From IMG/VR virus record IMGVR_UViG_3300031365_000014, positions 1 to 24,211 of that record: 24,211 nt of DNA; one strand, written 5' to 3'. Source of the stretch: a virus. Shown here one piece after another: positions 1,459 through 19,115 of this stretch. Both the position numbers and the translations under genes were made by a program. How positions within the stretch are numbered: position 1 is the first letter of the stretch; every line of letters starts with the position of its first letter. The notes under the pieces were generated by a model that did no database searches, had not been told where the DNA came from, and saw only the letters and a list, made by a program, of their open reading frames with translations.

Positions 1459-4400
1459 CTATTCTTTTTTTGTCATTACTGTATAAGCATTCTCAAGAAT
1501 TTTATTCCGGTAATCAAGTAATTTATTGACCCTTTCTTTTTTCTGCTCAGGAGTCAAATCTTTCCGATAATAGATTATCTTAATCCGGCCATTGATAAGC
1601 CCTATCTTTCTGCGAATTTTATTCATACCTTTCTTATATTGCAATGTATTTCTGCTTGTTCTTGCCAGCTCAACAGCCTTTTCAATGTCTCCCGTTTTCT
1701 TGTAATGGTTGATTGTCCCGACAAGAACATCCATCTCTCTTGCCATTTTGTAGAATCTGGTCATGTACTTTGTGTGCCTTGGCGGAGTTTCTCTAACAAA
1801 GCGACCGATTAAAGGATAGTCGTCAACCCGCCTCTTCGGAGGTGTAGGGAAGTCAAACGCCCACTGTGCCAGGATGTCAGTACCGCCCAGGATAAACATA
1901 CCCAGAGTACCCAAATATCCCCTGACAAGAGTTTCTGCCCGCATAGGTGATACATTGAGTTTTTCCCCGAGAACTCTCAGAGATTCACTCGTCCATGGCT
2001 GTGCCTGTTCTCCTGATTTAACGCGCTTCATTGATTCGGATATGATCGGCCGACCGGTAAATCTGATCTTATTTTTAGCCTGCTCATACAGGGGCTTGAC
2101 AAGTTGAGGGACGTCAAGGGCAAACGTGTCTCTCATTGTCTGCCCAATAAAATGCATAATGTATTTGCCCTCTTCATTCCCTGAGAGAACATCAGCTATT
2201 GACTCAACTGAAGAACTGAATATAGCATCGACTTCAAAGGCCCTGGGAAGACGGAAATGAGTATCTCCAATCCAGAAATGGCGATATGTCCACTTTTCCC
2301 AATTTTCAAGCTCTTTATATCGGTCGTCATCTTTTACGCCTGACCACCAAGCAAGACTGAGCCCTGCCAAAATTGCACCCTTCAACAAAAAAGCCCCCGG
2401 ATTTTCCCCATAGGCCCTGCCCATTTTGTATAGTCCTTGCATCCTGGCCCCGAGAAAGGGTATTGTCCGAATCATAAGTTGAGTAATCTGAGCATCACCT
2501 GCTAAGCTAAAATCCAATACATCTCTGGCTTGATATCCTGCGACAAGGTTAGAGGCTCCTTTTTTTCTCCAGTTAGCATAGAGCTGCACCCTTGCTGCAT
2601 TCTCAGAAGCACTTCCAACTTTCTCCCACCATTCCAATAATGAAAGCGGTGATAAGGTAAACCCTTTTTTGTGGGCTTTTCTGACGATCTTCCGGACATG
2701 CCTTGCCATAGCCTTTGGATCATCACCCCGGACATAGCCAAGAGAGAATCCACCTCCGGCTGACATCATGGCAATAGCTTCCGGGCTTTCTGTATAGGCC
2801 TTATACAGCCCCTGCATAGAATCCCATACGGGAATAAAGGATTTGTTTACCATCGCCGTCTGAAGCGTATCACGCATGAAGTTTGCGACTCTGAAAGCAG
2901 GTCCGAAGGTAGCTCCATATGTGAGCATCCGCTTACTCGTGCCAAACATCTTCATCAAAATGCCATCAAATTTTTGTATATTGGCCCCGCTCAATGCATT
3001 GAAAAGCTCAAGATCGTGAACCTTGAAATACTTTCTTTTCCCATTTTCCATATAGGAAAGAATAGCCTCTTTCTCTGGCTTTCCAATATATTTAGGCGGC
3101 TTAGACGGAGTAGCGTAGCCTAATTTCTGCATATATCTAAACGATGTGGTCCTTGACCGGTTCCGGATAGACTCAGTGATAAGGTGTGACCAGTTCCTCA
3201 AAATATTTTCAAACGGATCGCCAAGCTTATCTTCACCGCCCGTAAGCTTTTTGATTTGTGCATCTATGAATTTTCGGGACTTGAAAGGAACCCTCAGGAA
3301 CTCCTCTCCAAGAAGTTCATCCTCTAATATTCGGTAGAAGGGGATATACTCGTCATGTTCCCAGACTTTACGCATAGCCGGATCAATGAGGCCTATCTCC
3401 TGGGCAAAGTCTAAGACGTTCTTGTTAAAGGCAACGTACTCATTGTCCAAATCCGTCCCCTTCCAGTCTTTGCCTCCTATCTTTTTCAGCAGAGCAATAT
3501 CATCTTCTGTGAAAAGGTGCTCCCGGTCTTCCCCCGTGAGCTTTTCAGCTCTGGTGGCTATCTTCCAAAACAAATATCTGTCAATATCCCTGATACTCTT
3601 GGGTTTATATCCAATCTTGTCTTTTAGGAGTGCCTGTATCGAAGCATCGTATGAATCGACCTTTTTTTCATTTGTCCCATGCTTTTCAGTTAATGGCAAA
3701 AATCCCTTATTTTTCGTTTCAACAAGCGGAGCATTTTCCAACCATTTCAATTTACCATGCTGAAGAAAAGTTGCGACAACAGTGGGTGCGCTGGTATCCA
3801 TCCGGCCTTGGATATATGCCTGTGCATCGGGGTCTTGGATATCAAGACCCTGGTCCAGTTTTTTCATTAAAGGATAGAGGCGATCTACAGTCCGAGTCCG
3901 CAGATTCGCGGCTAGGTCATTGTAGGGTTCAACAGCTTTTCCTGCCGGAGATTCGACTTGATCCGGTGGTAATGGTGAAGGCCTATGCTCCTTTTTTAGT
4001 TCTTCCAGTTCACCGAGAAGCTTTTGAGCACTAGGTGTCAGTGTTTGATGTTCTTTGCCATACTCAGCTTTAGGTTCAAACAACCCCCGCGCTTTTTTGG
4101 TGGGTTTTCTCTTGGTCTCAAACGCGTTAGGGACAGCTTCTCTCAAACTCTTTCCTTCTACGTCCAGGGCATCGAGTAACCAGTCTCCCACATCGCCATA
4201 CTTGGCAATTGGCTCAAACAAAGTCATGTCGTCAGCTATAATGACTGTCTTTATTGCATCAAGACTTTTGGCTTGCTGACGTAGAATCTTCTCAAAGTCT
4301 GGTACGCTTTTCTTTAAAATTTTGTTGTCATGCGTTGACCAGCCCACAACTTTGTTGGCATTATCCACATAAACGAGACAGGTCTTTGTTTTGTCATAGG

Positions 4401-7400
4401 CGAGCTTTGCACCAAAAACCGCTGACGCTTGCGGGCTTGACAGTACTGGCCCTCTCCTGTCCACCCATTCGCCAGTACCAGGAATTACCTTAAACGTCCC
4501 TTCAAGAACATGAACCGACCCATCCTTGATATAATCAGATACCCATGTAAATTTTCCATGATCTATAACTATGAATTCACCGCTCAGGTCGCCGAGCTTT
4601 TTTCTTATTCCTCTGGCAAACTCAACATCCTCGTTGCTCATTGTCGGATTGCCAGATGGATGGTTATGGAGAACATGAACTTTGTTTGCCCCCAAACGTT
4701 TTGCTGAAGACTGTATTCCGTAGATGTACTTAGCCGAATCCCCAGGATCAATAACACCTATCTGCCCAGACGTTATCGCATTGTGGCCCAAGATAGTCCC
4801 GTCCCTAGCGGTGTAAATTGCATGTAATGTTTCCATTTTGGGAGAACGGTAAACCTGGAAAAGTTCAGCTATTTCTTGAGATTCGTTTCCTTCGGTGAGC
4901 TTTCTGCCGGAAAGATCCACACGCTTGTTTTTCCTGATTTCTTTAGCAACTTTGGAGACGGATACTTTCCCGGCCACCCTATCCGGCATTCTTCGACTGG
5001 ATACACCATCGACTTTTTTGGCGACTGATTCGATTGCTTCATTTGCTTTCTTTTTACCTCCGAAGGCTAAATCAAGTTCGGATTGTTTGTATTTGCCCAT
5101 AGGCTCCATTATGGCTTGACCTTGGGCTTCTATGGCTCGGCGCATAGTGGGAGTTATCGCCATTGTGTGAACAGGAACATCTCCAACCTTGTCAGCTTTG
5201 ACGGTTGTACCCCACTTTTTCCCATACTTCTTTAAGAATCCCGGTATTTTTTGGTCATAAATAATCTTGTAGAACTCGCCACCGATGGTTAAATTCTTGC
5301 CTTCAAAATTACCTGAAGTCTCAGAAGATTCCCGAATCTTGTTGGCAAGCTCTTTGCCTATGAGATTGTTTAAGGTGACACGCTGACCCTCTATTGTGGT
5401 TTCGCCCTGAACAAGAACCCGTTGGTTGAAAATTCTTTTTCCATCCTTAAATCCTTTAATGTCAACAAATTCAGAAGAAAATCGCTTAGGCCCAGAATAA
5501 CCTTTTTCCCATCCAATCTCATCAACACTCTTCCGGAGCGCACTCTCCCACCGGTCAACCTGCGTCTTGGCAGTATCCCATGATATGCCGTCAAAGTCAT
5601 TTCGTACAACGTACTCAAGGGCTTTTTTAGATACCAGTTCGTGCCAATTTTCACCCCAAGGGAAGAGCTTTTTGAGTTTGGCGAGTTCTTTTTTTATTTT
5701 ATTGTCGGTAATTCCACCAGCATCGGCTATGATTTCTTCAAGCTCTACGATCTTCCCATAAATATCACTCTGAAACTCAGCAATATGAAAGGTTTTCTTA
5801 CCGTCTGCATCTATATGGGTATCGCCACGGATGTGGGCTATTACGTTGGGTTCGTCCCAGTGGGCGGAAACATATTTGTTTGTTTGTTTGTTTAGTTTTA
5901 CCTTTGAATCCTTCGGTTTATTTTTTACAGCATCCGCTTCAGTGTCATACCATTCGACAACTCTCCATTTCCCCTCTTTGCCTTCCTCCTTATCTTTTCT
6001 AAAAATACCCCATATATCTGTTTCTGACCCATCTAGATTTTCCTTAATATCTTTTTTTACTTTCCATTCAGTTTCAAGATAATAGTCCTGATATTTCACT
6101 GGCACAGTAAACACCAACTCCCGATAACTTCCGGGTTCACCGCCGGGGAGGACGTACTCGGCGAACTTTGGTTTTCCTGCAAACTTCTTTTTTGCTTTCC
6201 TAACTTTTTCTTTTGATTCGATAAACTTGAAAGGACGCACATTATAAAAAAACATATCTTCAAGATATTCTTTTGCATCGTTTATTGCTTCTTCTTTTGA
6301 GTCTCCGATGCCGATAGTTCCCACTTCACCGCTTATATTATTTCCAAAAATACTCCACAGATTATATTTATCTGTTAAATTATGTTCAACGTAATATTCA
6401 TTTGAAGGCAAAATGCCTCCCATTTCTTTTTCCTCAATCCGAATTTCATTCATCTTCAAAAAATCCACCAATTCAGCCTTAGTTACCCTGTCCTTGCCCT
6501 CCAACCACTCAGTGAGGCCCACGGTATTTATTTCGGCCTGCTTCACTCCAGGTTGCTTTTTAAGCTGATTTATGACAGACTTGGCAGATAGTTTCGCTGG
6601 AAATTTTGGGGATTCGGCGACATGGGTAAGAGCAGAATACATGAAGGGTTCGGCTTCTGCTATTGAATACTTGGCTTCAGATTCTTTCAGAACAGGCCTA
6701 GCCTTCTCTCCGAATAGTCCTCTTTTTTCTTTTTCTCTCAGTATAACTTCTGGTTTAGCTTTTGCCTTAAAAGCTTCTTGCGCTTTTACTTGTTGAGCTT
6801 TGAAGAACATCCTTGCTTCGGACGCTGAATTAAATTCTTCGCCTTCAAAAACTTCATTTCTTGTACCAGTGAAAAATAATTTAAATTTTCTGTTCGCTTG
6901 TTTTTTTGCAGTTATACGATTTATGGAAAGATTAGGTCTATCTGCTAAATCTGAAATCTCCCAAGGTTCTTTAACTTTTGGGATAACTTCAGCCTTGGCA
7001 ACAGGCTCTTTAGGCGCAGGCTCAGGATTATAATAAAATTCTTCAGACGTTTCTTTGATTTTATCTTTTCCGATATTCTTTGTAAATCCTAACTTTTTAT
7101 ACCAAAGCCGATTTAATTTCTGTGACTCTTTTCCCCTCATTGCATCAGAAGTAAGGGTAATAATTAGTCCTTGTTTGTCTGCTGACTTCATTAAATCTTT
7201 AATAGTTTTTGTTCCTGTGCCTTTTCCCTTTTCTAAAATTTCAATATCATCTATATTAACAACATTACCTTCCCTTGATAAGGTTATGCTACCTACAACT
7301 TTATTTTCAGTATTTAATATTTTATGCATTCCGCTTTCAATCTTTTTTTCAGGTATCGCTACTGAGACTTCCTTGCCTTCATTAGATTCTTTTAATTTAA

Positions 7401-10400
7401 TGTCAGATGCCCATTTTTCGTTTTTGTATTCTTTGAGCGATTTTATTTTAAATATTATACCTGTTTCTTTTGCAAGTTGTTTATTAATTTCTTCTAAAAT
7501 TGCATTTATAGACATTTTCTTAGAACGTCCAGATTCAAATATTTCGTTTTCTATAGCATTGTGTCTTTCACGCAACTGACGAGGAGTTTTTTTAAAACCG
7601 CTTGGTTTTTTAAACTCATAAACTGTTCCAGAAGGTACAACAACCCGCATTTCAGTTACATTACTCCAACCCAATCTACCCCAATCGTAATCACTTGGCA
7701 TCGCTTCGGTAGGATGGGTATGGATATCAATAATTTTTTCATCAAAAGGAATATCAATATCTACTTTGTCAGGTCTCCCAACTGCTTCCGTTATTGTATT
7801 ACCTGTTTTACTATCAACAATCCATCGTCGCTCATTTTTCTTAATATCCCAGGGCTGCTTTTCTTCAATCTTGGCAATTGGTTCTTTAGGTTTTAGCAAC
7901 TCAGGATATTCAGCGCGAACATGATCAGGTAATTTGTTATCCTGAATCATATTTGCAAGTTTTTCATTTATGTTACGTCCCCGATAGGCCATGACTTCTT
8001 TGTCATCCATCAACCGAGCTTTATGTTCTGGCTTTATCTTCCCTTCAATGAAATGTGCTCTTTCATGTTCAATAATATCTTTGCGATCTTTTGCTGAATG
8101 ACCAAAGAATTTTTCAGGATCTAAAGAAATTGTGCCATCTGGCTCTGCTCTTGCTATATCCTCTCTTGGCAATGGTTGGACCTTAAAACCCTTTGGATTG
8201 ATAGTTTTAAATTCATCCAAGGACATCTCCCACGGTTGTTTCTCTTCAGCCTTGGCAATAGGTTCTTTGGGTTCAATCTCTGTTACTTTCTTTTCTAATT
8301 CTTCAGTAGTATATTCATTAATTCCACGGTTTCTTCTAAAATCTTTTGGCAATTTATTCCACAATTCTTTTTTGTATATTTCAGCTTTTTCAATTCTTGC
8401 CCATTCTTCTGGATATTTTGCTTTTACCTTATCCAGCTCACCTTCCTCAACCTTCTTCCCGGTTTCTTTTACATATCGTTTTACAAGATCAATTTGGGTA
8501 ACTTCTTTAGGTTTCTCTTCCTCAATTCCCCGCAAGATCTCTTCAAGATTCTTCGCAATCTCGGCACGCTCTGCTTTGGACTTGGCTTCACCTATAGCTT
8601 TTAGGCCCTTGTTTTTCAGGCCCTCTATGAGCTTCGCTTTGCTTACCGTAGCCTCCTCGGCATGTTTCAGGGCTTTGGCGGGATCTTTAGAGGCCATGTC
8701 AACTAAGGTTCTAAGGGTTACGTCATTAACTCTGTCGGATTCCTTTAACATTCCGGGCGTTTCGGCTTTTACTTTCTCTGAGACAGCTTTCAGCTTTTCT
8801 TCTTTGGTTTCTCCCCTTGCCATAACCTCAACGCCTTTGCCGCCTTTGATTACTTGCCAATCTACCAAAGGTACAATCCCGTAACCACCTTTAACTTTAA
8901 CTACCTTATGAGTTTCAGGAGTAATGCCCTTAGATGCCAATCTCTTTGAATTCAGAGCACGGATAGCATTTCTTTTTTCTTTATAAGGCTTTTCTTTGGT
9001 AGTTAGAACAGGTTTATGCTCAACCTTAAGTTCTTCAGGCGCAGCCTTTCCTGCTACAAACTCAGCGCCCTCAGGATAGGTAGGCCCTTCTATCTTCTCA
9101 GGGCCTGGACGTAACTTTGTTTTTGGTTTTGGTGGAACTAGCCCAAATCCCTGGTCGGGGGGAAGAGCTTTAGATCCGGCCTCTTCACGGGGTATCAACC
9201 CACATTCTTCACCAACTCGCTTTTCGCCAAGCACCTGATCAAGCTCCTTGGCATACTCGGCTCCTTCGGGAGACTGACGGAGGGCGACAAGGTCCTCTGC
9301 GGAAGCCTTGCGGAGTTTATCAAGAACCGTCTCCCTCTCACCTTCTTCTATTACATGCGAAATATTTTCAATATTTTCCGGTGTGGTTGAGTCCTTTATT
9401 TGATCTTGGAAAGTCTTAGCAGGCCCAGATATACCCCCCATGCCTCCACCAATTAAGACACCGCCGACAACAGATTCAATAATACCCTGCATCATATCCT
9501 GGTCAGCATCGTATCCAGCCTTGGCAAAGGCGTTGGCAACAATCTCCTGGGCACCCTCAGTGCTTCCCTCTAAGGCCATGGCCTCTAATACCCGGCTTAT
9601 AAGTTTCTTGCCCGCCGATTTCCCAAATATTTTGAATATAGGCACATATTCAAGAGCGCCAGCTACAATCCCTGTGCCAATCACAGCCTGAAGCTTTTTG
9701 CCTATCGGGATCTCTTTACCTGTAGCCTTTTCATATTGTCTTGTCTGCTCAGCCGCTCCCCCGGCCTCAAGTCCCATGGCAGTGCCAAGACCTCCGGCCA
9801 CTCTTGCAGCCTTTACGCCTTTTGCGGCCCATCCAAGGGCCTGAGCCCCTTTTGCGGCCCCCAATCCGGGAATCATCATGGAAAACACAGTGGGAATACC
9901 CTCGCTTACAATTGAGGCATACCAATTCGGGTCTTTCCATAATTGCGGATTTTTACGGATATCACCGGAAATGCTTGCAGATTTTCTGAGGCCAGGACTT
10001 TCTTCGATATATTTCTCTACCTTTTCGGCCCCCTGTTCTCCGACCTCTTCCAGGCCCTCCCAACCAATCGCTTCACCTGCCACATCGGCAAGGTAAGCGG
10101 GCGTTGCTGCTACACGTAAAGCACCCCGGCCCAAACCGGCGGTAATTTCACCAAGGAATCCGTGTTCTGTTTCTGGAATTGGCTGTTGAGATGCTGTAGC
10201 AAGGCTCTCTTGTGGCTCTGCTCCGATAGAAGCTATAGCCTCATCAAACTCATCTCCCGGCATGCTTGGTGCTGACAGGTCTGGCATTATGCCCGGCTCA
10301 ATCAATTGTGAATGCTCAGCAAAGGCTATAGCCTCATCAAATTCATCTCCCGGCATGCTTGGTGCTGACAGGTCTGGCATTATGCCCGGCTCAATCAATT

Positions 10401-10557
10401 GTGAATGCTCAGCAAAGGCTATAGCCTCATCAAATTCATCTCCCGGCATGCTTGGTGCTGACAGGTCTGGCATTATGCCCGGCTCAATCAATTGTGAATG
10501 CTCAGCAAAGGCTATAGCCTCATCAAATTCATCTTTTTGAAAAGAAGAAAAAGACAT
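1459..10557 (-). CDS. Giant polyvalent ejection-type protein (3032 aa)
   Basis: The largest gene. Order in residues: three perfect 31-aa repeats plus a partial copy (9-109); Gly/Ala-rich hydrophobic segments (about 128-165, 215-268, 290-335, 359-380) that could cross a membrane; a charged helical linker; a zincin-like site, HERAH at 831-835; a JAMM-like site at 946-958 (HTHPTEAMPSDYD); a GNAT-like domain with GKGTGT near 1111; small linker domains; a domain about 1465-1815 with HWDEPNVIAHIR at 1566, known from phage and plasmid polyvalent proteins; a RadC-type JAB domain with HNHPSG at 1964 and an SNED acid; and a C-terminal region (about 2200-2900) resembling large polyvalent protein-associated domain 38. 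Known polyvalent proteins are thought to enter the recipient with the DNA. Being last in the ejection cluster fits that. The SD is weak (AGAG). Catalytic roles are inferred from motifs. Confidence 0.9.
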   Translation of the reverse strand: MSFSSFQKDEFDEAIAFAEHSQLIEPGIMPDLSAPSMPGDEFDEAIAFAEHSQLIEPGIMPDLSAPSMPGDEFDEAIAFAEHSQLIEPGIMPDLSAPSMPGDEFDEAIASIGAEPQESLATASQQPIPETEHGFLGEITAGLGRGALRVAATPAYLADVAGEAIGWEGLEEVGEQGAEKVEKYIEESPGLRKSASISGDIRKNPQLWKDPNWYASIVSEGIPTVFSMMIPGLGAAKGAQALGWAAKGVKAARVAGGLGTAMGLEAGGAAEQTRQYEKATGKEIPIGKKLQAVIGTGIVAGALEYVPIFKIFGKSAGKKLISRVLEAMALEGSTEGAQEIVANAFAKAGYDADQDMMQGIIESVVGGVLIGGGMGGISGPAKTFQDQIKDSTTPENIENISHVIEEGERETVLDKLRKASAEDLVALRQSPEGAEYAKELDQVLGEKRVGEECGLIPREEAGSKALPPDQGFGLVPPKPKTKLRPGPEKIEGPTYPEGAEFVAGKAAPEELKVEHKPVLTTKEKPYKEKRNAIRALNSKRLASKGITPETHKVVKVKGGYGIVPLVDWQVIKGGKGVEVMARGETKEEKLKAVSEKVKAETPGMLKESDRVNDVTLRTLVDMASKDPAKALKHAEEATVSKAKLIEGLKNKGLKAIGEAKSKAERAEIAKNLEEILRGIEEEKPKEVTQIDLVKRYVKETGKKVEEGELDKVKAKYPEEWARIEKAEIYKKELWNKLPKDFRRNRGINEYTTEELEKKVTEIEPKEPIAKAEEKQPWEMSLDEFKTINPKGFKVQPLPREDIARAEPDGTISLDPEKFFGHSAKDRKDIIEHERAHFIEGKIKPEHKARLMDDKEVMAYRGRNINEKLANMIQDNKLPDHVRAEYPELLKPKEPIAKIEEKQPWDIKKNERRWIVDSKTGNTITEAVGRPDKVDIDIPFDEKIIDIHTHPTEAMPSDYDWGRLGWSNVTEMRVVVPSGTVYEFKKPSGFKKTPRQLRERHNAIENEIFESGRSKKMSINAILEEINKQLAKETGIIFKIKSLKEYKNEKWASDIKLKESNEGKEVSVAIPEKKIESGMHKILNTENKVVGSITLSREGNVVNIDDIEILEKGKGTGTKTIKDLMKSADKQGLIITLTSDAMRGKESQKLNRLWYKKLGFTKNIGKDKIKETSEEFYYNPEPAPKEPVAKAEVIPKVKEPWEISDLADRPNLSINRITAKKQANRKFKLFFTGTRNEVFEGEEFNSASEARMFFKAQQVKAQEAFKAKAKPEVILREKEKRGLFGEKARPVLKESEAKYSIAEAEPFMYSALTHVAESPKFPAKLSAKSVINQLKKQPGVKQAEINTVGLTEWLEGKDRVTKAELVDFLKMNEIRIEEKEMGGILPSNEYYVEHNLTDKYNLWSIFGNNISGEVGTIGIGDSKEEAINDAKEYLEDMFFYNVRPFKFIESKEKVRKAKKKFAGKPKFAEYVLPGGEPGSYRELVFTVPVKYQDYYLETEWKVKKDIKENLDGSETDIWGIFRKDKEEGKEGKWRVVEWYDTEADAVKNKPKDSKVKLNKQTNKYVSAHWDEPNVIAHIRGDTHIDADGKKTFHIAEFQSDIYGKIVELEEIIADAGGITDNKIKKELAKLKKLFPWGENWHELVSKKALEYVVRNDFDGISWDTAKTQVDRWESALRKSVDEIGWEKGYSGPKRFSSEFVDIKGFKDGKRIFNQRVLVQGETTIEGQRVTLNNLIGKELANKIRESSETSGNFEGKNLTIGGEFYKIIYDQKIPGFLKKYGKKWGTTVKADKVGDVPVHTMAITPTMRRAIEAQGQAIMEPMGKYKQSELDLAFGGKKKANEAIESVAKKVDGVSSRRMPDRVAGKVSVSKVAKEIRKNKRVDLSGRKLTEGNESQEIAELFQVYRSPKMETLHAIYTARDGTILGHNAITSGQIGVIDPGDSAKYIYGIQSSAKRLGANKVHVLHNHPSGNPTMSNEDVEFARGIRKKLGDLSGEFIVIDHGKFTWVSDYIKDGSVHVLEGTFKVIPGTGEWVDRRGPVLSSPQASAVFGAKLAYDKTKTCLVYVDNANKVVGWSTHDNKILKKSVPDFEKILRQQAKSLDAIKTVIIADDMTLFEPIAKYGDVGDWLLDALDVEGKSLREAVPNAFETKRKPTKKARGLFEPKAEYGKEHQTLTPSAQKLLGELEELKKEHRPSPLPPDQVESPAGKAVEPYNDLAANLRTRTVDRLYPLMKKLDQGLDIQDPDAQAYIQGRMDTSAPTVVATFLQHGKLKWLENAPLVETKNKGFLPLTEKHGTNEKKVDSYDASIQALLKDKIGYKPKSIRDIDRYLFWKIATRAEKLTGEDREHLFTEDDIALLKKIGGKDWKGTDLDNEYVAFNKNVLDFAQEIGLIDPAMRKVWEHDEYIPFYRILEDELLGEEFLRVPFKSRKFIDAQIKKLTGGEDKLGDPFENILRNWSHLITESIRNRSRTTSFRYMQKLGYATPSKPPKYIGKPEKEAILSYMENGKRKYFKVHDLELFNALSGANIQKFDGILMKMFGTSKRMLTYGATFGPAFRVANFMRDTLQTAMVNKSFIPVWDSMQGLYKAYTESPEAIAMMSAGGGFSLGYVRGDDPKAMARHVRKIVRKAHKKGFTLSPLSLLEWWEKVGSASENAARVQLYANWRKKGASNLVAGYQARDVLDFSLAGDAQITQLMIRTIPFLGARMQGLYKMGRAYGENPGAFLLKGAILAGLSLAWWSGVKDDDRYKELENWEKWTYRHFWIGDTHFRLPRAFEVDAIFSSSVESIADVLSGNEEGKYIMHFIGQTMRDTFALDVPQLVKPLYEQAKNKIRFTGRPIISESMKRVKSGEQAQPWTSESLRVLGEKLNVSPMRAETLVRGYLGTLGMFILGGTDILAQWAFDFPTPPKRRVDDYPLIGRFVRETPPRHTKYMTRFYKMAREMDVLVGTINHYKKTGDIEKAVELARTSRNTLQYKKGMNKIRRKIGLINGRIKIIYYRKDLTPEQKKERVNKLLDYRNKILENAYTVMTKKE
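6959..7014 (-). repeat. Linker repeat, copy 3 (divergent), in giant gene
   Basis: Encodes a linker of the form PKEPVAKAE...KEPWEIS near residues 1182-1200. It matches copies 1 and 2 at both ends but has about 12 extra bases in the middle. It lies between the GNAT-like domain and the next small domain. Confidence 0.6.
7847..7891 (-). repeat. Linker repeat, copy 2, in giant gene
   Basis: Encodes PKEPIAKIEEKQPWD around residues 890-904. By eye about 37 of 45 bases match copy 1 at 8228-8272. It separates the zincin-like domain from the JAMM-like domain. Confidence 0.7.
8228..8272 (-). repeat. Linker repeat, copy 1, in giant gene
   Basis: Encodes PKEPIAKAEEKQPWE around residues 763-777, directly before the zincin-like domain. 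It is in the same frame and orientation as copies 2 and 3, so exchange between copies would keep the reading frame. Confidence 0.7.
10231..10533 (-). repeat. 93-bp in-frame tandem repeat, three copies plus a partial
   Basis: Three head-to-tail copies of a 93-bp unit (10255-10533) encode a 31-aa block starting DEFDEAIAFAEHSQLIEPG. A partial fourth copy (10231-10254) encodes DEFDEAIA with one base change. The full copies look identical base for base, which points to a recent expansion or active homogenisation. The unit length is a multiple of three, so copy number can change without breaking the gene. The encoded segment is acidic and lies at the extreme N-terminus. Confidence 0.95.
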
Positions 10558-10599: not shown

Positions 10600-12006
10600 T
10601 TACCATCCACCACCAGCTCCCAACGAAGGTCTCTGCGGAGCCAGTTCATTCATTATGTCTTCCCACATTCTTTGAGCTTCTTCACCTTCTCCATATGCAC
10701 CCGATTTCAGTTTTAGCAATTCTTTTTTTTGCTCCGGTGAAGTATTGGGATATTTTGTTTTAAGCTCTTTTGCAAGTTGCCTTAATGTATCCTGACGTGA
10801 AGCAGCAGCACTCCCTCTAGCTTCCTTAGTTTCCAACCTTTTCATAAGATCTGTCAATTCACCAATCCGTGCCCTTTTCATCTCTGGATCACCAAACGGA
10901 TCTGCAAGAGATGTCCGAAGCCCAGCCAATTCCTTGATGGTCGTGTCGTACCGTTTTTTTTCGGTGTGAGTCAGCCTATCCACTGACTCTTTGGTTTGCA
11001 GCCCTTCGGTTTTAGCTTTTGCCAATCCAACCTTAGCAGCCGATTCCGCAGTTGCCCTTTCTTCTTTGGCAATTCCCCTTTCTCTTTCAAGAACGCTTTC
11101 TTCTCTTTCCCAGCCTTTACTATAAGCTTCTTCTAAATTTTCTGGAGCATTTTTTAGCTTATTCCCGTCTGGCTTAAAAAAGAAATAATCAACGCTATAA
11201 CTCGTTCCTACTTGTTTGACTAAAACTATCTGACCGTCTGGAGTACGCATTCTAATGGGAGGCTTTAAAGCCAGTTCTCTGCCAGCTTGTGCATCGGCTG
11301 CAAACGTAATCGCATGCTCTTCCATGCTGTAATTATTAAGAAATTCTTCAACTTCAGGATAAGTAAGTCCCGGCCCTCTGTGTTTCACTCCCGCAACGGT
11401 TTCAATGATATAAAGCTTATCTCCAACTATGTCGCCTTTTCTCCTCGCGACACTATTATCAATAGCTTCCTTCAATAATTTTAATGCTTTTTTTGTGTTT
11501 CCACTCCTAAAAGCATGACGAGCTTCTGTTGTAACTGTTTTAATATCTCCAGCATCTTTAACTCCTTTATCGAGAGCTGTTTGGGTAAGTACTTTGTCGG
11601 CTTGAGCGTTTTGTGCTAACCTATTATTAACATTTGATTGAGCCGTAAAACGTGCAAGAGCATCTGGTCCCTGTTTCTCCAAATCTTTTTCTACTTCTTT
11701 CTTTTTCATTGCTGCGGATTCACGAGTACTTTCTGCAAGATTTTGGCTAGCCGTAGAATTCCATTGATTTGTTGGATTACCTCTTTCATCTACGAGACCA
11801 CTACTTCTCAATCCCTCTATATATTCACCCTCAAGTCTCTTAACAGAATTATCGAAAGCTACATTTTTCTGCCCTTGCTCAAATTTTGTTTGAGCGCGTT
11901 TTTCTCCGGCTTGCTGTATTCCCAATTGTTCTCGGCCTCTGCGCATAGCATCAAGGCTGCCGACTGCATTTACCATACTCCAAACATTTCCAAATCTATC
12001 AGCCAT
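10600..12006 (-). CDS. Putative internal virion / ejection protein (468 aa)
   Basis: A hydrophilic, mostly helical protein. The N-terminus (MADRFGNVWSMVNAVGSLDA) has a short apolar segment. Charged, Ala/Glu/Lys-rich regions with coiled-coil character follow (about 30-180 and 295-440), and the tail ends in a Gly-rich GAGGGW. AGGGGATT precedes the ATG with good spacing. It sits between small ejection-like genes and the giant polyvalent gene, in the place where P22-like and T7-like phages keep ejected internal proteins. I do not recognise a specific family. Assignment rests on position and composition. Confidence 0.7.
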   Translation of the reverse strand: MADRFGNVWSMVNAVGSLDAMRRGREQLGIQQAGEKRAQTKFEQGQKNVAFDNSVKRLEGEYIEGLRSSGLVDERGNPTNQWNSTASQNLAESTRESAAMKKKEVEKDLEKQGPDALARFTAQSNVNNRLAQNAQADKVLTQTALDKGVKDAGDIKTVTTEARHAFRSGNTKKALKLLKEAIDNSVARRKGDIVGDKLYIIETVAGVKHRGPGLTYPEVEEFLNNYSMEEHAITFAADAQAGRELALKPPIRMRTPDGQIVLVKQVGTSYSVDYFFFKPDGNKLKNAPENLEEAYSKGWEREESVLERERGIAKEERATAESAAKVGLAKAKTEGLQTKESVDRLTHTEKKRYDTTIKELAGLRTSLADPFGDPEMKRARIGELTDLMKRLETKEARGSAAASRQDTLRQLAKELKTKYPNTSPEQKKELLKLKSGAYGEGEEAQRMWEDIMNELAPQRPSLGAGGGW

Positions 12007-12015
12007 AATAATCCC

Positions 12016-12321
12016 CTAAGAAAACAAATAAGATCCTAACCCCAAAACAGCACCAATGCCTGCACCCCACCAACCCCCTACTGATGTACCCGAACCCATA
12101 TAAGCTCCCATAGTAGCTCCTAGCCCAGTAGCAGTCGCGCCACCGCCAACAATAGGCCCAGGTTCTTTCGTCTCTGTTTTACTGCCTGCTTGCATTCGGG
12201 CATAAGTGCCAGAAGCCTGTCCCATCCAATCACGGGCCATTTGGGAAGGATCGGTGAAAGAAATTTGCCCCAACCTTGGTCTTGTTTTGTCAGCATACAT
12301 ATCAGAAAAAGGATAATTCAT
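12016..12321 (-). CDS. Small Gly-rich membrane-active virion protein candidate
   Basis: A 101-aa product. The N-terminal half is polar (MNYPFSDMYADKTRPRLGQI, then SQMARDWMGQASGTY). The C-terminal half (about 56-101) is a Gly/Ala-rich hydrophobic stretch with glycine-zipper spacing that could insert as one or two membrane segments. The ATG overlaps the stop of the upstream gene (ATGA at 12318-12321), and GGGAGG lies 6 nt before the start. Membrane-active small proteins are common in phage ejection modules, where they help make the trans-envelope channel. A holin is the main alternative, but no lysis gene adjoins it. Confidence 0.65.
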   Translation of the reverse strand: MNYPFSDMYADKTRPRLGQISFTDPSQMARDWMGQASGTYARMQAGSKTETKEPGPIVGGGATATGLGATMGAYMGSGTSVGGWWGAGIGAVLGLGSYLFS

Positions 12322-12902
12322 GATTGGCCTCCCAATATTCCTCTTAAACGTCTGAAGCTTTCTTCTTCAGCATAGCGCCTTCCCATAGTTCCAGCCCCGG
12401 CTAAGCCCTTGGCTTTATCTCTTAACATTTGGCTTTGCATACTCGCATATCGTCCAGAGGCAGGATTGATACCCATACGCCCAAGGCCTCGTCGCATTTC
12501 TCCTTCCATTCCTGAATACGCTTGCTGAACTCCTGTTTTGGCTTTTCCCATCTCTTCCTCAGCACTTATGCCTTTTGTGGCTTCGTCAAAATATTGTCCT
12601 GTGAGACCTTGATATCTTTTAGCAAGGGCTGTTTGCCCTGGAAGAAGTTCTCTTTGCGCTGCAATTTGTTCTTGTTCAAATGGCTTAAAGTCTGTTTTCC
12701 AATATTGAAAATATTCTTCAGCCATACCCTGTTGAGCTTCAGCAATCGTAGCCATGCGCCTGTTATATTCTTCATCGACTGAAGTTGTTGAACCCCCGCC
12801 ACCGCCCTTGCATTCGACCACGGTTCCCTCATATTCGAGAAAAGATTCTTCGATTGCTTCGCCTGTTTTCAGATCGTAAACCAGTTTGCTGTATATTTTC
12901 AT
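12318..12902 (-). CDS. Internal virion / DNA-ejection protein (194 aa)
   Basis: The N-terminus MKIYSKLVYDLKTGEAIEES followed by EYEGTVVECKGGGGG matches a short sequence pattern I associate with podovirus virion proteins of the ejection module: a strand pair, Tyr-x-Gly, then a Cys-Lys-Gly and a glycine run. The rest is helical and rich in Gln, Glu, Ala and Met (about 40-194), with repeated YxGLTGQYFDEA and GMEGEMRRGLGRMG segments. Its AAAGGGG Shine-Dalgarno overlaps the end of the upstream GNAT gene, and it shares four bases with the next gene. It is probably packaged in the head and ejected with the DNA. The family is recognised by pattern only. Confidence 0.72.
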   Translation of the reverse strand: MKIYSKLVYDLKTGEAIEESFLEYEGTVVECKGGGGGSTTSVDEEYNRRMATIAEAQQGMAEEYFQYWKTDFKPFEQEQIAAQRELLPGQTALAKRYQGLTGQYFDEATKGISAEEEMGKAKTGVQQAYSGMEGEMRRGLGRMGINPASGRYASMQSQMLRDKAKGLAGAGTMGRRYAEEESFRRLRGILGGQS

Positions 12903-12905
12903 TTA

Positions 12906-13412
12906 TTAACCCCTTTGATAATATCCTATTACTCCAGGCTCACTCTCACTTTTCTCTTTATCCCATATCAAATTAGGGATCTCTCCACATATTTTACTGC
13001 CGCACATTTGTACGAACTGAATCGCAGATTTATTAGATGCAGGCATATAACCTATCAAAAGATCAAAAATATAGTTGCCTTCTTTATCTTTCATATTTAT
13101 CAATTTTTGGCTTATATACCGACCAGCCCGGATTTTTTGTTTTGCAGAAATTCCGTCAAACATACACCAGTGGATTCTTGCAAGTCTTCCCTCGAATCTG
13201 TTAAGCCATGTGATACCAAGGAGATCATTCCGATAATAAATAATGTAAAGAAATGTTCCTTCATTTTTCATGACTTCCAAGAATCTCAACCTATTATAGA
13301 TTGTACCATCCTTAAAAATGTATCCCTTGCCTTCCTTTATTGTCCTATCATAGATACTGAGAATTTCAGAATCTGTAAAAGTCCTAATTCCGTCAACTTC
13401 TATGTAGGGCAT
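12906..13412 (-). CDS. GNAT-fold protein of the phage head/ejection module
   Basis: From the ATG at 13412 the product has 168 aa. The frame extends upstream to 13511, but that part overlaps the preceding gene by 80 nt and encodes only a Lys-rich stretch, so the start MPYIEVDGIRTF, just after the previous stop, is preferred. Central strands FLYIIYY...LLGITWLNRF, the LARIHWCMF strand and the following helix (KQKIRAGRYISQKLI) fit an acyl-CoA N-acyltransferase fold. P22-like phages carry a protein of this fold, gp14, next to their ejection genes, and this gene has the same position. Whether it acetylates anything is unknown. Confidence 0.65.
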   Translation of the reverse strand: MPYIEVDGIRTFTDSEILSIYDRTIKEGKGYIFKDGTIYNRLRFLEVMKNEGTFLYIIYYRNDLLGITWLNRFEGRLARIHWCMFDGISAKQKIRAGRYISQKLINMKDKEGNYIFDLLIGYMPASNKSAIQFVQMCGSKICGEIPNLIWDKEKSESEPGVIGYYQRG

Positions 13413-13431
13413 TATCTCAATCAATTTCTTA

Positions 13432-13764
13432 TCACTTTTTCGCCAAGCTTGCGATTGCCTGTTCTCGTAAAAGCTTTTTTTCTTCATTCTTGATTTGTTT
13501 TTCTTTTTCAACGTCTTGGACTTTTGTCTGATTAACGGTTATAGGTTTTCCCTTTCTGCCTTCCCACGCATATCTATGCTCTCTCTGAGGCAAAACAGAA
13601 GAATCTACATCATCATAAGGTAATCCCTCAAATTCTCCCTGCATAGCCTTACTGAACACTCTTTCCAGCCACTGTTCTTCTGATTCGTTTGCTCGTCTTG
13701 ATTTTGGGACAGGATGAACTACACACACAGATTTATCAGGTTTATAAACTATTCGACATTTCAT
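13432..13764 (-). CDS. Small fibre-associated protein (110 aa)
   Basis: Starts at the ATG at 13764, whose A is shared with the stop of the short fibre gene (TAATG). GGAG lies 7 nt upstream. A longer frame to 13791 would overlap the fibre gene and lacks that site. The N-terminus KCRIVYKPDKSVCVVHPVPK and the pattern VDSSVLPQREHRYAWEGRKG resemble a small protein found beside fibre genes in many phages, where the motif is roughly D-x-S-x-L-P, then R-x-x-R-x-A-W. The C-terminus is a charged helix (about 80-110). A fibre assembly or attachment factor is likely but not proven. Confidence 0.7.
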   Translation of the reverse strand: MKCRIVYKPDKSVCVVHPVPKSRRANESEEQWLERVFSKAMQGEFEGLPYDDVDSSVLPQREHRYAWEGRKGKPITVNQTKVQDVEKEKQIKNEEKKLLREQAIASLAKK

Positions 13765-14799: not shown

Positions 14800-16626
14800 T
14801 TAATTTGTTACCCTTAACATTCTGTAACCTGTTCCGCCGCTGTCGACGTCTCCTACTTCTATTGTTTTGCCATTTACCCCTCCAACTCTTAAAGCAATAG
14901 GATTATCACCAGTAGCTCCATAACCTATCTGTATTCCTCCTGGTGCAGATTCGCCAATTGTAACTTTGTCATTAAAATTTACATTCATTAAATTAATATT
15001 ACCATTATCAGCGTTATTTCTTGCTCTAATGTATTGATCATTACCTAACCAAAGCGCAGTTTTACTTGAAATATCTCCAGAATGTAAATCAATACCTTCG
15101 TACATATCTCCAATACATCTCAAGAAAGTATGTACATTAGCATCACAAGAAAATCCAGCTCTCCATTCATAATTATTACCAAATCCAGGGTTATGTCCAA
15201 CATAAACAGCTTCAGTTCCGGTGTTATCTGTAGCTACACCCCACCCTAACGCATCATTTTGAATACATATTCCAGCTACGTCGTCATAGGGCCAGTTATT
15301 TCTCTTGAAACGTGGAAGAGCCGTAACACGAATACCATAAAGAACACCTCTATCATTTGCTGCTATTGTGGGTTCATCTCTAATTGTAACATCTAACCCG
15401 ATTACACCTTTAAAGTTTGTGTTATCTCCTTTTCCTTCCGTGTAAATAGCAAGAACAGGAACTAAACTACTGGGAACAGTGGTCGTGGAATAAGCCAAGA
15501 GGTTATAAGCATTCGGCCACCATAAACCATATGAAAAGGGGGCTGATGGGTAGTCCACAGCAGTATCTTTTATTCTGAAGGGATGATTTGCTCCGGTCTG
15601 GTTGCTTGGAGTTATATAGGTTCCTACATCGGTGAATAAACTACCACCTCCTAATGTCTCAATCTTGTCATAAACAGCGTTTTTAGACGGTGCTATCGTT
15701 GTTACTCCATTCCAGCCAACACCATAAACGATGTCGCTGATTTTGGCGTCACCATAAGTCTTGACGGCATGACCATCAGGAAGATTTGATCCGTCAGTCA
15801 AAATATCCTCGGCAGCCCTGAGAGCAGCAGAGCTCAGTCCTAAAGAACTTCGACCGGTAGTCGCCACCAGATTCGTACTACCACCATCCCATTGACGACG
15901 CTCAGTGTATGCCGTATTCCAATTTCCTGAGTTGTTGGCAATCGATGTATCCCAGGCTGACCCTGTTGAGAGGGCAATGCCTGCACCGGGGTAAGTCATA
16001 CTATCTGGAATATCCCAGGTGGGGGCGGCAGTAACCCCATTAGCCTTTAGATATTGACCACTGGTACCCAAAGCGAGTTCTGTTACATCACCAAGATTAT
16101 TACTATAAAATAACCGCCATGCTGTCTGGGCTATAAAATCAGTAAGATTATCGGGAACTGTCTGGTCCCCGGTATTGGAACCCGACAAAGTTAAACCAGA
16201 ATCCTTGATGAGCTTTCCGGTTGTGCCATCGAAGAAAACCACACGATTATTTACGGCTGAGGCTGGGCCGACTACATTGCCGCTACCTTCGCCCCAATGA
16301 GCATCACCATAAGTCTTAATAGCAGCACCATCAGGAAGATTTGATCCGTCGTCTGTTAACGTATCTTCTGCATTGCGAGAAGATGCTGTCCCAAGGGTAG
16401 GCTTGTTTAGAATCTCTGTGTCTCCGTAAGTAGCTTCCCAGTCAGCATTGACATTGAGTTCTCCTAAACCAGAAAAACCACTACGCAGAATTACATCACT
16501 CCCGGTGCCAAGATTACCTTGATAGACCTCTAGTCGCTGTTTAATGGCAACACAAAAATCAGTCAGCGCAGGATCATCTATACGTGGCACTGGTGGAATT
16601 GCTTTAAATGTGGTTTCTCTAGTCAT
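14800..16626 (-). CDS. Tail fibre protein (608 aa)
   Basis: The N-terminus has the pattern of podovirus fibres that dock to the tail: AIPPVPRIDDPALTDFCVAI followed by a helix KQRLEVYQG. A repetitive stalk follows (about 80-330), with two copies of AEDxLTD-GSNLPDG-x-A-x-KTYGDA (near 86 and 270), the fibre motif LSGSNTGDQ, and the APSKNAVYDKIE module also found in the 261-aa fibre. The C-terminal 280 residues are beta-rich and less repetitive and probably bind the receptor. The start overlaps the previous stop by one base (TAATG), so translation is likely coupled to the nozzle gene. Confidence 0.82.
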   Translation of the reverse strand: MTRETTFKAIPPVPRIDDPALTDFCVAIKQRLEVYQGNLGTGSDVILRSGFSGLGELNVNADWEATYGDTEILNKPTLGTASSRNAEDTLTDDGSNLPDGAAIKTYGDAHWGEGSGNVVGPASAVNNRVVFFDGTTGKLIKDSGLTLSGSNTGDQTVPDNLTDFIAQTAWRLFYSNNLGDVTELALGTSGQYLKANGVTAAPTWDIPDSMTYPGAGIALSTGSAWDTSIANNSGNWNTAYTERRQWDGGSTNLVATTGRSSLGLSSAALRAAEDILTDGSNLPDGHAVKTYGDAKISDIVYGVGWNGVTTIAPSKNAVYDKIETLGGGSLFTDVGTYITPSNQTGANHPFRIKDTAVDYPSAPFSYGLWWPNAYNLLAYSTTTVPSSLVPVLAIYTEGKGDNTNFKGVIGLDVTIRDEPTIAANDRGVLYGIRVTALPRFKRNNWPYDDVAGICIQNDALGWGVATDNTGTEAVYVGHNPGFGNNYEWRAGFSCDANVHTFLRCIGDMYEGIDLHSGDISSKTALWLGNDQYIRARNNADNGNINLMNVNFNDKVTIGESAPGGIQIGYGATGDNPIALRVGGVNGKTIEVGDVDSGGTGYRMLRVTN

Positions 16627-19100
16627 TAGTTGAGCTCTGCCATCGATTGTCCCACTTTCACATTAACTACCTTGCCAATGCCTTTTATTTCAATTTCCCA
16701 ATTTTTCCCAGTCCCGGGGGGGAGCCTAAAAGGATTTGTAGAATTAATGGCTCTAGTAAAAAACAGTGTGTCGTCTTTGTAAATATTCAACATGGTAGTA
16801 TTATATTTAAATAATATCGGTATCTCTATGCCATACTTTTGCCCGTTTTCGTCTACATAATGAAAATCGTTTTTGTCTGCATAATATTCTAATTCATGTG
16901 CCTTATCTGAAAATGCAGATACAAGGGTTAAGGAAGTGTCGGTTTCAATAGACGCGATTTCTCTATATTCCTTTGTTGCACTGCTAAAAAGTACATATTT
17001 CGTTTTAAGTTCTGTAGTAAAACTTGTTCCTGTCCCAATAATTGTCGTATCGGAAGAAATAATTTGACCCGTTCCTGTTATATCTTCGACAAAATCACCA
17101 TCTATTTTCATGCAGGAAAAAAAGGCATATGAGGTTACAAAAATTTTAGATTTCCATTGATGCATCAAAAAATCTTCTGTTATTCCACTAGTTCCAGTAG
17201 TTATTCTATTATCTCCCGCCTCTGTTATTCTATTATCTCCCGCCTCTGTTATAAGATTTTTACTAATTTCAAGATTATTAAATCCTTCCCATTCTTTAAC
17301 GTAGTATGTTGATCCGCTTTTGATGAGAAGGTAAAGAGTATCATCAATTAAATCTACATAACCTCCATAAACAGATAATCCCGATTCAAGTGTAAATTTG
17401 GTATAGAATTGAAATTCTGATCTAAAATTAATTACGAATCCCTCGTTTGTTCCTTCAAAAAAAGCATAATATTTATCATCATACAAAAAAGCTATTATAG
17501 TCTTATCATAACTTATCAGATTAGTTAAAACATCTCTCCATTGTTCTTTGGTAAATATATTCTCAGTAACATTTCTGTTGCCCTCATCACTAATCATATA
17601 AAGACCATCGGGAGACGGATATAAAACAAATCTTGGACCATTGACCATAGCCCTGGAAAACAAACATGCTTGTTGATCTGGCTGTTTTTCTATGGATACA
17701 TTCTGAGGATCATATCCATTGACTTTGTAAGGATAGCCCTCTGTCCCTACCACTATTGTCGTTCCATACCAACCTATTGATTTTATATCAAAATCTGTAG
17801 TCACTATATAATTAAAGGGATAACCATAATGAATATAGGGTTCTGAAAGATAAACTTCTTTTCCTCTATAGCCAACAGTTACACCATTTGGTAACGTAAT
17901 TATACCTTTTAGATCATCGGGAGGCTGTATATAATCAGTGCAAGATATTACTTCACCCAAATCGGCATCATCACTAATTTCATCATCTTCAGTGTCTATG
18001 TCGTTCCATATGCCGCCATTAGTTGATATCTCCGCGGGGGTTATATAATCCGTTGATTCGCAATCTTCCATAATTTTGGTTACAAGTTGAAAATCTGTTC
18101 CATCAATTCCGGTGGCAGTTCTATAGATTCTAATTCCTACAATATTATAATTTGAGGGTACTGGAATTTCAAAATTTCTTAACTCTACATATTGCCCTTC
18201 GCTGATATCAATGACCGCCGTTGGATCGCTTGGCTCTCCCTCATATCCCCAACCTGTCACAAAAGTATAAATATAAGAAATTGAGCCGGAAACATCTCCA
18301 ATTGTTTCTTTTAACGTAAAATTATCAAAATCAGCGCTTGAATCACTTGCTACTGCAACTATTCTATAACCACCTGTTGTAGTAGCAGTCCATTCGAGAG
18401 TTTTTCCTGTTTCGTCTGTTGATACGGTACCTATTGTTTGAATTCCATCAAAACTTTTTATTATCCAAGTTGAGACAAGATTGGCTATATCAAAAGTCAT
18501 CTTATAACTTTTCCCAATTGTGGTGGGAGCAGAAGTTACAGGGCAGGTACAATATTGATCTACTGCTGAAGCTGTTATGGTAAGATCATCTGTCTCATCG
18601 TAGGCGTCCAAATCAACATTTACCCAAGCCGAAGCAGCAGAAAAGTCACGATCTTCTTGATTAGGCATTAGTTCGGAACGGGATGATTCTTTTGCTACAG
18701 CATTAAAAAAACTTGTTGGCTTAGGAACACCAAGATAATAAGCTGTGTTTGGAATCCCGTAAGTGTTAGCTCCGTCGTTAGACGCTAAAGTAAAATTCGA
18801 TTCCTTCGGTTTTGTTCCATCGGTATAACAAATTCTTCCCTTACTTTCCTGGATGGGTATGTTGACCCCATTGATTTCCTCCGTAGAACATAACCAAAAA
18901 ACAGCCCCGCTATACTTAATAAGAAAAATACTTCTCCACGCAGTTGTATTTAAAATTTTTGCATCGCCTATTTCGTAAAATGGTTTTAAGATATTTTGAG
19001 ATAGATCGGCGTTAATAGCCACCTGAGCATGTTCCGAAGGCAACTGTTTCGGATCAACTATAGGAACCTCACCTTTAAATGTGGAAATCTCTATAAGCAT
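16626..19100 (-). CDS. Large tail nozzle-like protein with inserted jelly-roll-like domain
   Basis: From the ATG at 19100 the product has 824 aa; a TTG at 19109 is also possible, and neither has a strong SD. The opening (TFKGEVPIVDPKQLPSEHAQ, then INADLS) fits the start of tail tube B or nozzle-type proteins of short-tailed phages. Mid-protein, YTFVTGWGYEGEPS and the following strands are typical of the same proteins. Between them, residues about 143-265 look like an added jelly-roll domain. A 24-bp tandem repeat near 17200 duplicates ITEAGDNR. The C-terminus is beta-rich. It probably forms the distal tail tube. Assignment is by pattern, order and length. Confidence 0.72.
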   Translation of the reverse strand: MLIEISTFKGEVPIVDPKQLPSEHAQVAINADLSQNILKPFYEIGDAKILNTTAWRSIFLIKYSGAVFWLCSTEEINGVNIPIQESKGRICYTDGTKPKESNFTLASNDGANTYGIPNTAYYLGVPKPTSFFNAVAKESSRSELMPNQEDRDFSAASAWVNVDLDAYDETDDLTITASAVDQYCTCPVTSAPTTIGKSYKMTFDIANLVSTWIIKSFDGIQTIGTVSTDETGKTLEWTATTTGGYRIVAVASDSSADFDNFTLKETIGDVSGSISYIYTFVTGWGYEGEPSDPTAVIDISEGQYVELRNFEIPVPSNYNIVGIRIYRTATGIDGTDFQLVTKIMEDCESTDYITPAEISTNGGIWNDIDTEDDEISDDADLGEVISCTDYIQPPDDLKGIITLPNGVTVGYRGKEVYLSEPYIHYGYPFNYIVTTDFDIKSIGWYGTTIVVGTEGYPYKVNGYDPQNVSIEKQPDQQACLFSRAMVNGPRFVLYPSPDGLYMISDEGNRNVTENIFTKEQWRDVLTNLISYDKTIIAFLYDDKYYAFFEGTNEGFVINFRSEFQFYTKFTLESGLSVYGGYVDLIDDTLYLLIKSGSTYYVKEWEGFNNLEISKNLITEAGDNRITEAGDNRITTGTSGITEDFLMHQWKSKIFVTSYAFFSCMKIDGDFVEDITGTGQIISSDTTIIGTGTSFTTELKTKYVLFSSATKEYREIASIETDTSLTLVSAFSDKAHELEYYADKNDFHYVDENGQKYGIEIPILFKYNTTMLNIYKDDTLFFTRAINSTNPFRLPPGTGKNWEIEIKGIGKVVNVKVGQSMAELN
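17200..17247 (-). repeat. 24-bp in-frame tandem duplication
   Basis: Two identical 24-bp units (17200-17223 and 17224-17247) encode ITEAGDNR twice in a row, with a related third partial run beside them. The unit keeps the reading frame. It sits in a loop-like Gly/Thr-rich part of the nozzle-like protein. Confidence 0.85.
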
Positions 19101-19115
19101 AATGTTCAATTAGCA

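Follow-up and report, generated by a model that had tools for sequence, protein, structure and literature searches.

The P0001 chain and its exchangeable middle

What is the role of a viral protein of 3032 amino acids (aa) that combines several unrelated enzyme-like domains with an LPD domain and adjoins late virion genes, as polyvalent proteins do? We addressed this question for the P0001 gene of IMGVR_UViG_3300031365_000014, a metagenomic viral contig whose 24,211 bases form the whole stretch of DNA analyzed here (the window). Our results suggest that P0001 belongs to a short-tailed phage and is probably a polyvalent protein of 'carrier plus cargo' design that is packaged in the virion and injected. 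Its carrier would consist of the repeats and the domain at the N-terminus together with the 860-aa C-terminal module with LPD38; judging from its homologues, this carrier would bring the chain into the particle and have a role in ejection or early infection. The middle ~1,700 residues would be cargo cassettes traded by recombination within the gene. The cargo here would comprise a GNAT domain, a RadC-type JAB domain, probably a second JAB domain, possibly a zincin, and an unnamed domain called modD. A first-pass annotation had described a single multi-enzyme protein at 1459-10557; the chain is exactly an intact open reading frame (ORF) of the minus strand, and the single-protein view is replaced, as far as sequence can tell, by that of a carrier with exchangeable cargo. 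The gene and its two ends lie as follows, residue k starting at nucleotide 10557-3(k-1):

1459..10557, minus strand: complete polyvalent protein gene P0001, 3032 aa, a single uninterrupted ORF
10232..10534, minus strand: N-terminal tandem array of 3.3 copies of a 93-bp unit (31 aa), 99% identical, from repeat analysis
9238..10257, minus strand: putative N-terminal carrier domain, aa 101-440, from profile matches
1468..4044, minus strand: putative C-terminal carrier module (C-module), aa 2172-3030 (~860 aa), from homologue searches
1807..2328, minus strand: LPD38 (PF18857), aa 2744-2917, Pfam E=6e-33

Cargo swapping became visible by comparison with another locus, L009, whose C-module shares ~83% protein identity with that of P0001 (aa 2172-3030), with 74% DNA identity over window positions 1522-4035. 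Both also share a 109-bp patch at aa 412-447, and the stretch between this patch and the C-module is unrelated. This comparison is direct evidence of cargo swapping. None of the other window genes matches the L009 locus, and the DNA upstream of P0001 gave no match to the whole 38.6-kb L009 record, which is a weak negative. In addition, among 69 proteins assembled by C-module similarity, the middle of P0001 was matched in only 0–13%.

Parts of this middle recur in other loci, and short repeats lie between them:

8698..9240, minus strand: module A, aa 440-620, common to L002 and L090
8263..8595, minus strand: module B, aa 655-765, common to L002 (58%) and L090
6772..6984, minus strand: module C, aa 1192-1262, 55% identical in the virus MetMV (L008) and 63% in L002
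8218..8271, minus strand: linker repeat 1, aa 763-780, PKEPIAKAEEKQPWEM, from repeat comparison
7837..7890, minus strand: linker repeat 2, aa 890-907, PKEPIAKIEEKQPWDI, from repeat comparison
6955..7014, minus strand: linker repeat 3, aa 1182-1201, PKEPVAKAE...KEPWEI, from repeat comparison

Modules A, B and D (modD) are found in both L002 and L090, and module C in L002, with 35–63% identity and divided between two proteins; the P0001-type C-module is absent from the stretch of these loci that was seen. Note that in both (L002 8387-21839 and L090 1047-13818), the second large protein carries a HEXXXH (HELGVH) zincin variant directly after modD, and that L090 is a contig within a Candidatus Fermentibacteria metagenome-assembled genome. 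The succession of modD, RadC and C-module occurs once more, in the same order, in L159; RadC and the C-module also stand together in L043, L049 and L064, and GNAT and the C-module in L030, L075 and L249. No close full-length homologue of P0001 was found among viral contigs, genomes and phages. The combination of domains, suspected from the start to be new, was not met elsewhere as an exact set, but every firm part of it recurs in other viral loci.

These recurrences also bear on whether the ORF could be an assembly or recombination chimera. The 99% identity of the N-terminal repeats and the C-module in common with one phage that is otherwise different speak for such an artifact; however, 3032 codons run without a stop, L159 keeps the same order of three modules, and the loci sharing P0001 modules (L002 and L090) come from other samples. 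We consider a chimera highly improbable.

The three linker copies (consensus PKEP[IV]AK(A/I)E..K[EQ]PW[ED]) start at residues 763, 890 and 1182 and frame the zincin stretch, the JAB1-GNAT stretch and the module C stretch. Linkers 1 and 2 are identical at 13 of 16 residues, compared to at most 10 in 200 shuffles. They may represent recombination or processing sites.

The putative carrier ends

The C-module is present in 54 phage records (including Vibrio, Bacillus, Pelagibacter, Escherichia, cyanobacterial and Burkholderia phages) and in 77 IMG/VR loci. Among its relatives, the LPD38-bearing, DarB-like gp69 of phage JC1 was identified with 51 unique peptides by mass spectrometry of virions purified on caesium chloride (PMC9144972), and the DarB-like protein of BcepMigl, from the same phage group as JC1, matches the P0001 C-module (4e-9). 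Moreover, PTXU04_00025 (gp25) displays 27.8% identity over 96% of the module, and its knock-down causes a large plating loss in a laboratory Escherichia coli host (PMC11879866). Since C-module relatives occur in virions (JC1 gp69) and are needed for plaquing (PTXU04 gp25), we read the carrier as a probable ejection or structural part; by analogy, it would most likely be packaged and serve in ejection or early infection, with the cargo riding along. Virion association of P0001, as first annotated, is thus supported by homology to these two proteins. The importance of the carrier in PTXU04 also suggests that at least part of P0001 would be needed for infection itself. In Methanosarcina virus MetMV (L008 7676-16684), a 3002-aa LPD38 protein contains module C with 55% identity, which suggests that the carrier and one cassette also occur in an archaeal virus.

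The same relatives suggest another function, in which P0001 would counter restriction as DarB does, by acting on restriction enzymes of the host. Its position and C-module are the same as in the DarB-like proteins of Bcep22-like phages and of VvAW1, but P0001 lacks, at every threshold tried, the methylase-helicase dyad by which DarB is recognized and which VvAW1 has. With neither methylase nor helicase, DarB membership was rejected, and a function of this kind is very unlikely.

At the N-terminal end, aa 101-440 searched alone match positions 218-440 of the N4 virion RNA polymerase profile (2e-8), the virion structural phrog_6958 (7e-8) and the DarB-like phrog_10089 (8e-4). The polymerase family phrog_2206 is matched by P0001 in its N-terminal part only, and the T7-type polymerase module was not recognized. 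In 61 of the 69 C-module proteins, the first 480 residues contain hydrophobic windows at a higher density than the middle does. The short motif G[FYWL][ST][DEP]..[IV] was rejected as a general N-terminal tag, being present in only 5 of 85 proteins.

Enzyme-like domains of the middle

The enzyme-like domains and the region that follows them are located as follows:

7024..7320, minus strand: GNAT acetyltransferase domain, aa 1080-1178, with a KGKGTGT loop at 1110, from family profile and fold match
4528..4965, minus strand: RadC-type JAB domain, aa 1865-2010, with full JAMM residues, from Pfam, PDB and catalytic residues
5068..6660, minus strand: modD, unnamed ~530-aa domain, aa 1300-1830, from family alignment and viral-contig searches
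7528..7845, minus strand: JAB-like candidate 1, aa 905-1010 (E909, H946, H948, S955, D958; spacing one residue shorter than RadC)
7891..8217, minus strand: zincin-like candidate, aa 781-889, HERAH at 831 and candidate third ligand E865, from motif and model
4045..4527, minus strand: region without convincing homologue in profile and homologue searches, aa 2011-2171

The GNAT-like domain of the first-pass annotation is firmly identified. Searched by itself it gives a Pfam E-value of 0.008, below the cut-off, while its family profile (31 members) matches almost only acetyltransferases in the PDB (best 5.6e-5), and the family was found in 110 viral contigs. The acetyl-CoA loop (R/Q-x-x-G-x-G/A) is kept across the 31 sequences, with R replaced by K in P0001. 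In the AlphaFold2 model of residues 765-1190, the GNAT part is confident (predicted local distance difference test, pLDDT, mostly 72–95) and matches GNAT structures in the PDB with a probability up to 1.00. The best of these fold matches is the anti-CRISPR protein AcrVA5 (6iuf; E=1.6e-3, probability 1.00, template modelling (TM) score 0.71 over AcrVA5, 25% identity), which raises the idea that the domain travels in the virion as an AcrVA5-type anti-CRISPR, one particular form of the carrier and cargo reading. In its favor, an AcrVA5 look-alike without sequence similarity blocks Cas12a (PMC10799925). However, generic GNATs outscore AcrVA5 by sequence (AcrVA5 is only ~20th among PDB GNATs by sequence profile, E=0.02), virion GNATs may instead target RNA polymerase, as perhaps does the precedent Rac of phiKMV (PMC7824862), and the metagenomic contig offers no host CRISPR type to match. 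An AcrVA5-type role for the domain thus appears quite unlikely.

The RadC-type JAB domain is also firm. Its slice matches RadC in Pfam (E=1e-9) and 2qlc in the PDB (E=9e-5), and all catalytic residues of the E and HxHP-x6-SxxD pattern are there (E1909, H1964, H1966, S1974 and D1977). The alignment of nine members, eight from phages and one from a plasmid, shows the JAMM residues E, H, H and D without exception, and S is missing in one; a single-sequence scan with the RadC slice gave no matches. Iyer et al. 2017 described RadC in polyvalent proteins as confined to conjugative elements (PMC5512222). This confinement is contradicted here since RadC was found in one ORF with the C-module or modD in the window and in seven viral contigs (L043, L049, L064, L101, L105, L138 and L159). 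A conjugative or plasmid origin of P0001 was rejected, as 72,556 plasmids yielded only one weak RadC match.

Two JAB-like sites had been proposed, and the H-x-H-P..S-x-x-D motif indeed occurs twice in P0001, compared to 0 in 300 shuffles; beside the firm RadC-type site, the first one is plausible only, from its motif, Glu909 and one relative. This sole relative noted is a 29%-identical phage sequence in L150, and the pair scored 84% against the RadC profile over 20 columns, at the motif. The region has a low-confidence model, with no JAB structure among the listed fold matches, and the L150 JAB row was excluded from the second structure alignment, where it was misaligned onto GNAT.

The zincin-like site, likewise plausible only, combines a HERAH motif, weak by itself (0.07 expected by chance), with a consistent arrangement in a moderate-confidence model, in which HERAH sits in one helix and E865 in the helix that comes next; on the other hand, neither a homologue nor a fold match was found for this region. 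A single-sequence scan with the slice covering zincin, JAB and GNAT gave no matches.

The first-pass annotation counted at least two recognizable polyvalent-protein regions, which correspond to LPD38 and the 530-aa modD. The latter was confirmed in at least 510 viral contigs (loci L096-L174 are among them), and across 62 members the residues Y, E, H, N, A, H, R, E, Q, S, G, G, Y and D never vary, a set that appears enzyme-like from the alignment. No meaningful Pfam or PDB sequence match was found for modD. Its model (pLDDT 79.5, predicted TM score 0.75; three rows from annotated records were left out of the structure alignment) gave no significant match in the PDB, and by our count GNAT-type folds make up ~29 of the best 50 matches (Naa50, NatC, AtaT, FemX and the ICL2 C-terminal domain, which we take to be GNAT-type). 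In BFVD, its own family came first, followed by viral N-acyltransferases. Since the TM score to GNAT is ~0.3 and the hhalign profile comparison is not significant (3%), a GNAT-like core of modD is a lead only. Note that Dolichospermum phage Dfl-JY45 (L091) encodes one protein with two modD copies.

Are these inserts enzymes at work, or decaying or neutral passengers of a mainly structural or ejection protein, i.e., a channel or scaffold in the particle? In favor of the latter, the C-module is the sole widely conserved part of P0001, the zincin and the first JAB lack clear homologues, and the knock-down of PTXU04_00025, a protein with no recognizable match to the P0001 cargo in its upstream part, strongly cuts plating (PMC11879866). 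However, neutral passengers would decay, whereas the RadC catalytic residues are kept in eight phage proteins and one plasmid protein, the GNAT loop in 31 sequences and the modD invariant set in 62. We regard such a mainly structural role with passenger inserts as unlikely.

Genes around P0001

As the first-pass annotation had it, P0001 ends an ejection-gene cluster: family matches and gene order place it at the end of a series of capsid, tail and internal-virion genes that share its orientation. Upstream on the minus strand are the major head protein, the structural protein phrog_399, the internal virion protein phrog_511, tail fibres and the virion structural protein phrog_8003, which is a podovirus-type virion and ejection cluster. 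The neighbors concerned are:

10600..12006, minus strand: 468-aa gene directly upstream of P0001, in internal or ejection-protein position, without family match
12016..12321, minus strand: 101-aa glycine-zipper-like neighbor, two genes upstream of P0001, with a weak match to P22 ejection protein gp7 (E=0.03, below the cut-off)
12318..12902, minus strand: virion structural protein (phrog_8003, 4e-9)
16626..19109, minus strand: internal virion protein (phrog_511, 8e-101), relative of its counterpart in the Bcep22-like phage DC1

A 24-bp perfect direct repeat (2.2 copies, 17200-17252) lies within the internal virion protein gene. The 201-aa gene at 12906-13511 is acetyltransferase-like by eye, with no Pfam or PHROG match, and occupies the position of annotated acetyltransferases in JC1 (gp63) and HTVC034P (gp47). 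Rhizobium phages of the RHph_TM group (RHph_TM3_14A) encode a protein with 45% identity to the major head protein (21898-22743), and a virus assigned to Methanosarcinales encodes one with ~31%; just upstream of the head protein gene of the window, an HNH endonuclease gene (22794-23393; phrog_5046, 6e-20) is probably a homing endonuclease. Downstream of P0001, positions 202-1442 hold three small genes with signal-peptide-like or lipoprotein-like starts and no good family match.

Proposed mode of action

If P0001 is an injected carrier with cargo, the cargo would act in the cell ahead of any phage gene expression. The GNAT domain would acetylate a host protein, with a Cas nuclease and RNA polymerase as precedents, and the RadC domain would have nucleic acid or nucleotides as substrate or, like other JABs, cut a peptide or isopeptide bond. 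The zincin, if active, may cut the repeated PKEP-AK linkers and thereby free the cassettes. Iyer et al. (PMC5512222) proposed that zincins process their own chain, that GNATs modify proteins and that RadC processes nucleic acids; these are predictions here. The suggestion of the first-pass annotation that P0001 enters with the DNA and acts on host proteins would fit this scheme, and we hypothesize a counter-defence role.

Several points weigh against this reading. Packaging of P0001 is argued from homologues, and the source is a metagenomic contig. The conservation of the C-module in the survey is partly by construction, from which the L009 comparison is exempt. The hydropathy of P0001 lies at or below shuffled expectation (best 19-residue window ~1.5 vs. 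a shuffle average of 1.76), so the membrane segments first proposed are not upheld, yet this region matches N-terminal parts of virion RNA polymerase profiles. Given its sequence rank, the closeness of AcrVA5 relies on one model, and no PADLOC defence-system model matched.

A bolder extension would make the N-terminal domain and LPD38 a standard injectable carrier onto which any counter-defence or take-over enzyme is loaded by recombination at the linkers, here an AcrVA5-type Cas12a acetyltransferase, a RadC-type JAB and modD as a new widespread enzyme family possibly derived from GNAT; we give this version a small chance. If the carrier and cargo reading is true, cargo could be found systematically between the two carrier ends, which would provide a route to injected anti-defence enzymes. 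In addition, the range of RadC is widened to phage polyvalent proteins, and modD, so widespread among viral contigs, is a clear target for structural and functional work.

Comparison with known systems

The kind of protein to which P0001 belongs is already known; what is new is RadC in phage polyvalent proteins, the evidence for cargo swapping and the precise set of domains, and modD, widespread and with no Pfam match, is counted as new relative to the main text of Iyer et al. 2017. P0001 resembles the phage-type polyvalent proteins (PMC5512222) in its great length, in joining unrelated enzyme-like domains in one chain, and in LPD38, virion-gene location and GNAT, with a candidate zincin as a possible further likeness, and differs from them in modD. 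The viral proteins of L002 and L090 hold its modules split over two proteins, with the HEXXXH-type zincin after modD. AcrVA5 (PDB 6iuf) has a fold similar to that modelled for the P0001 GNAT domain; it is a free small protein (95–96 residues in PDB chains), unlike this domain, which lies within a long chain. The N4 virion RNA polymerase shares its N-terminal region (profile positions 218-440), whereas P0001 lacks a polymerase module.

The DarB-like proteins (JC1 gp69, BcepMigl and Vibrio phage VvAW1) have in common with P0001 the LPD38 C-module and the last position of the virion module, and the JC1 protein was found in virions; P0001 differs in having neither methylase nor helicase. In JC1, a Bcep22-like phage of the group of DC1, the virion module likewise ends with the giant DarB-like protein. 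Finally, PTXU04 gp25 and phiARM81mr p69 match the C-module over 96–97% of its length and follow tail or virion genes, as P0001 does, but their cargo is different or unrecognized, and phiARM81mr carries ddrB-ParB and a methyltransferase.
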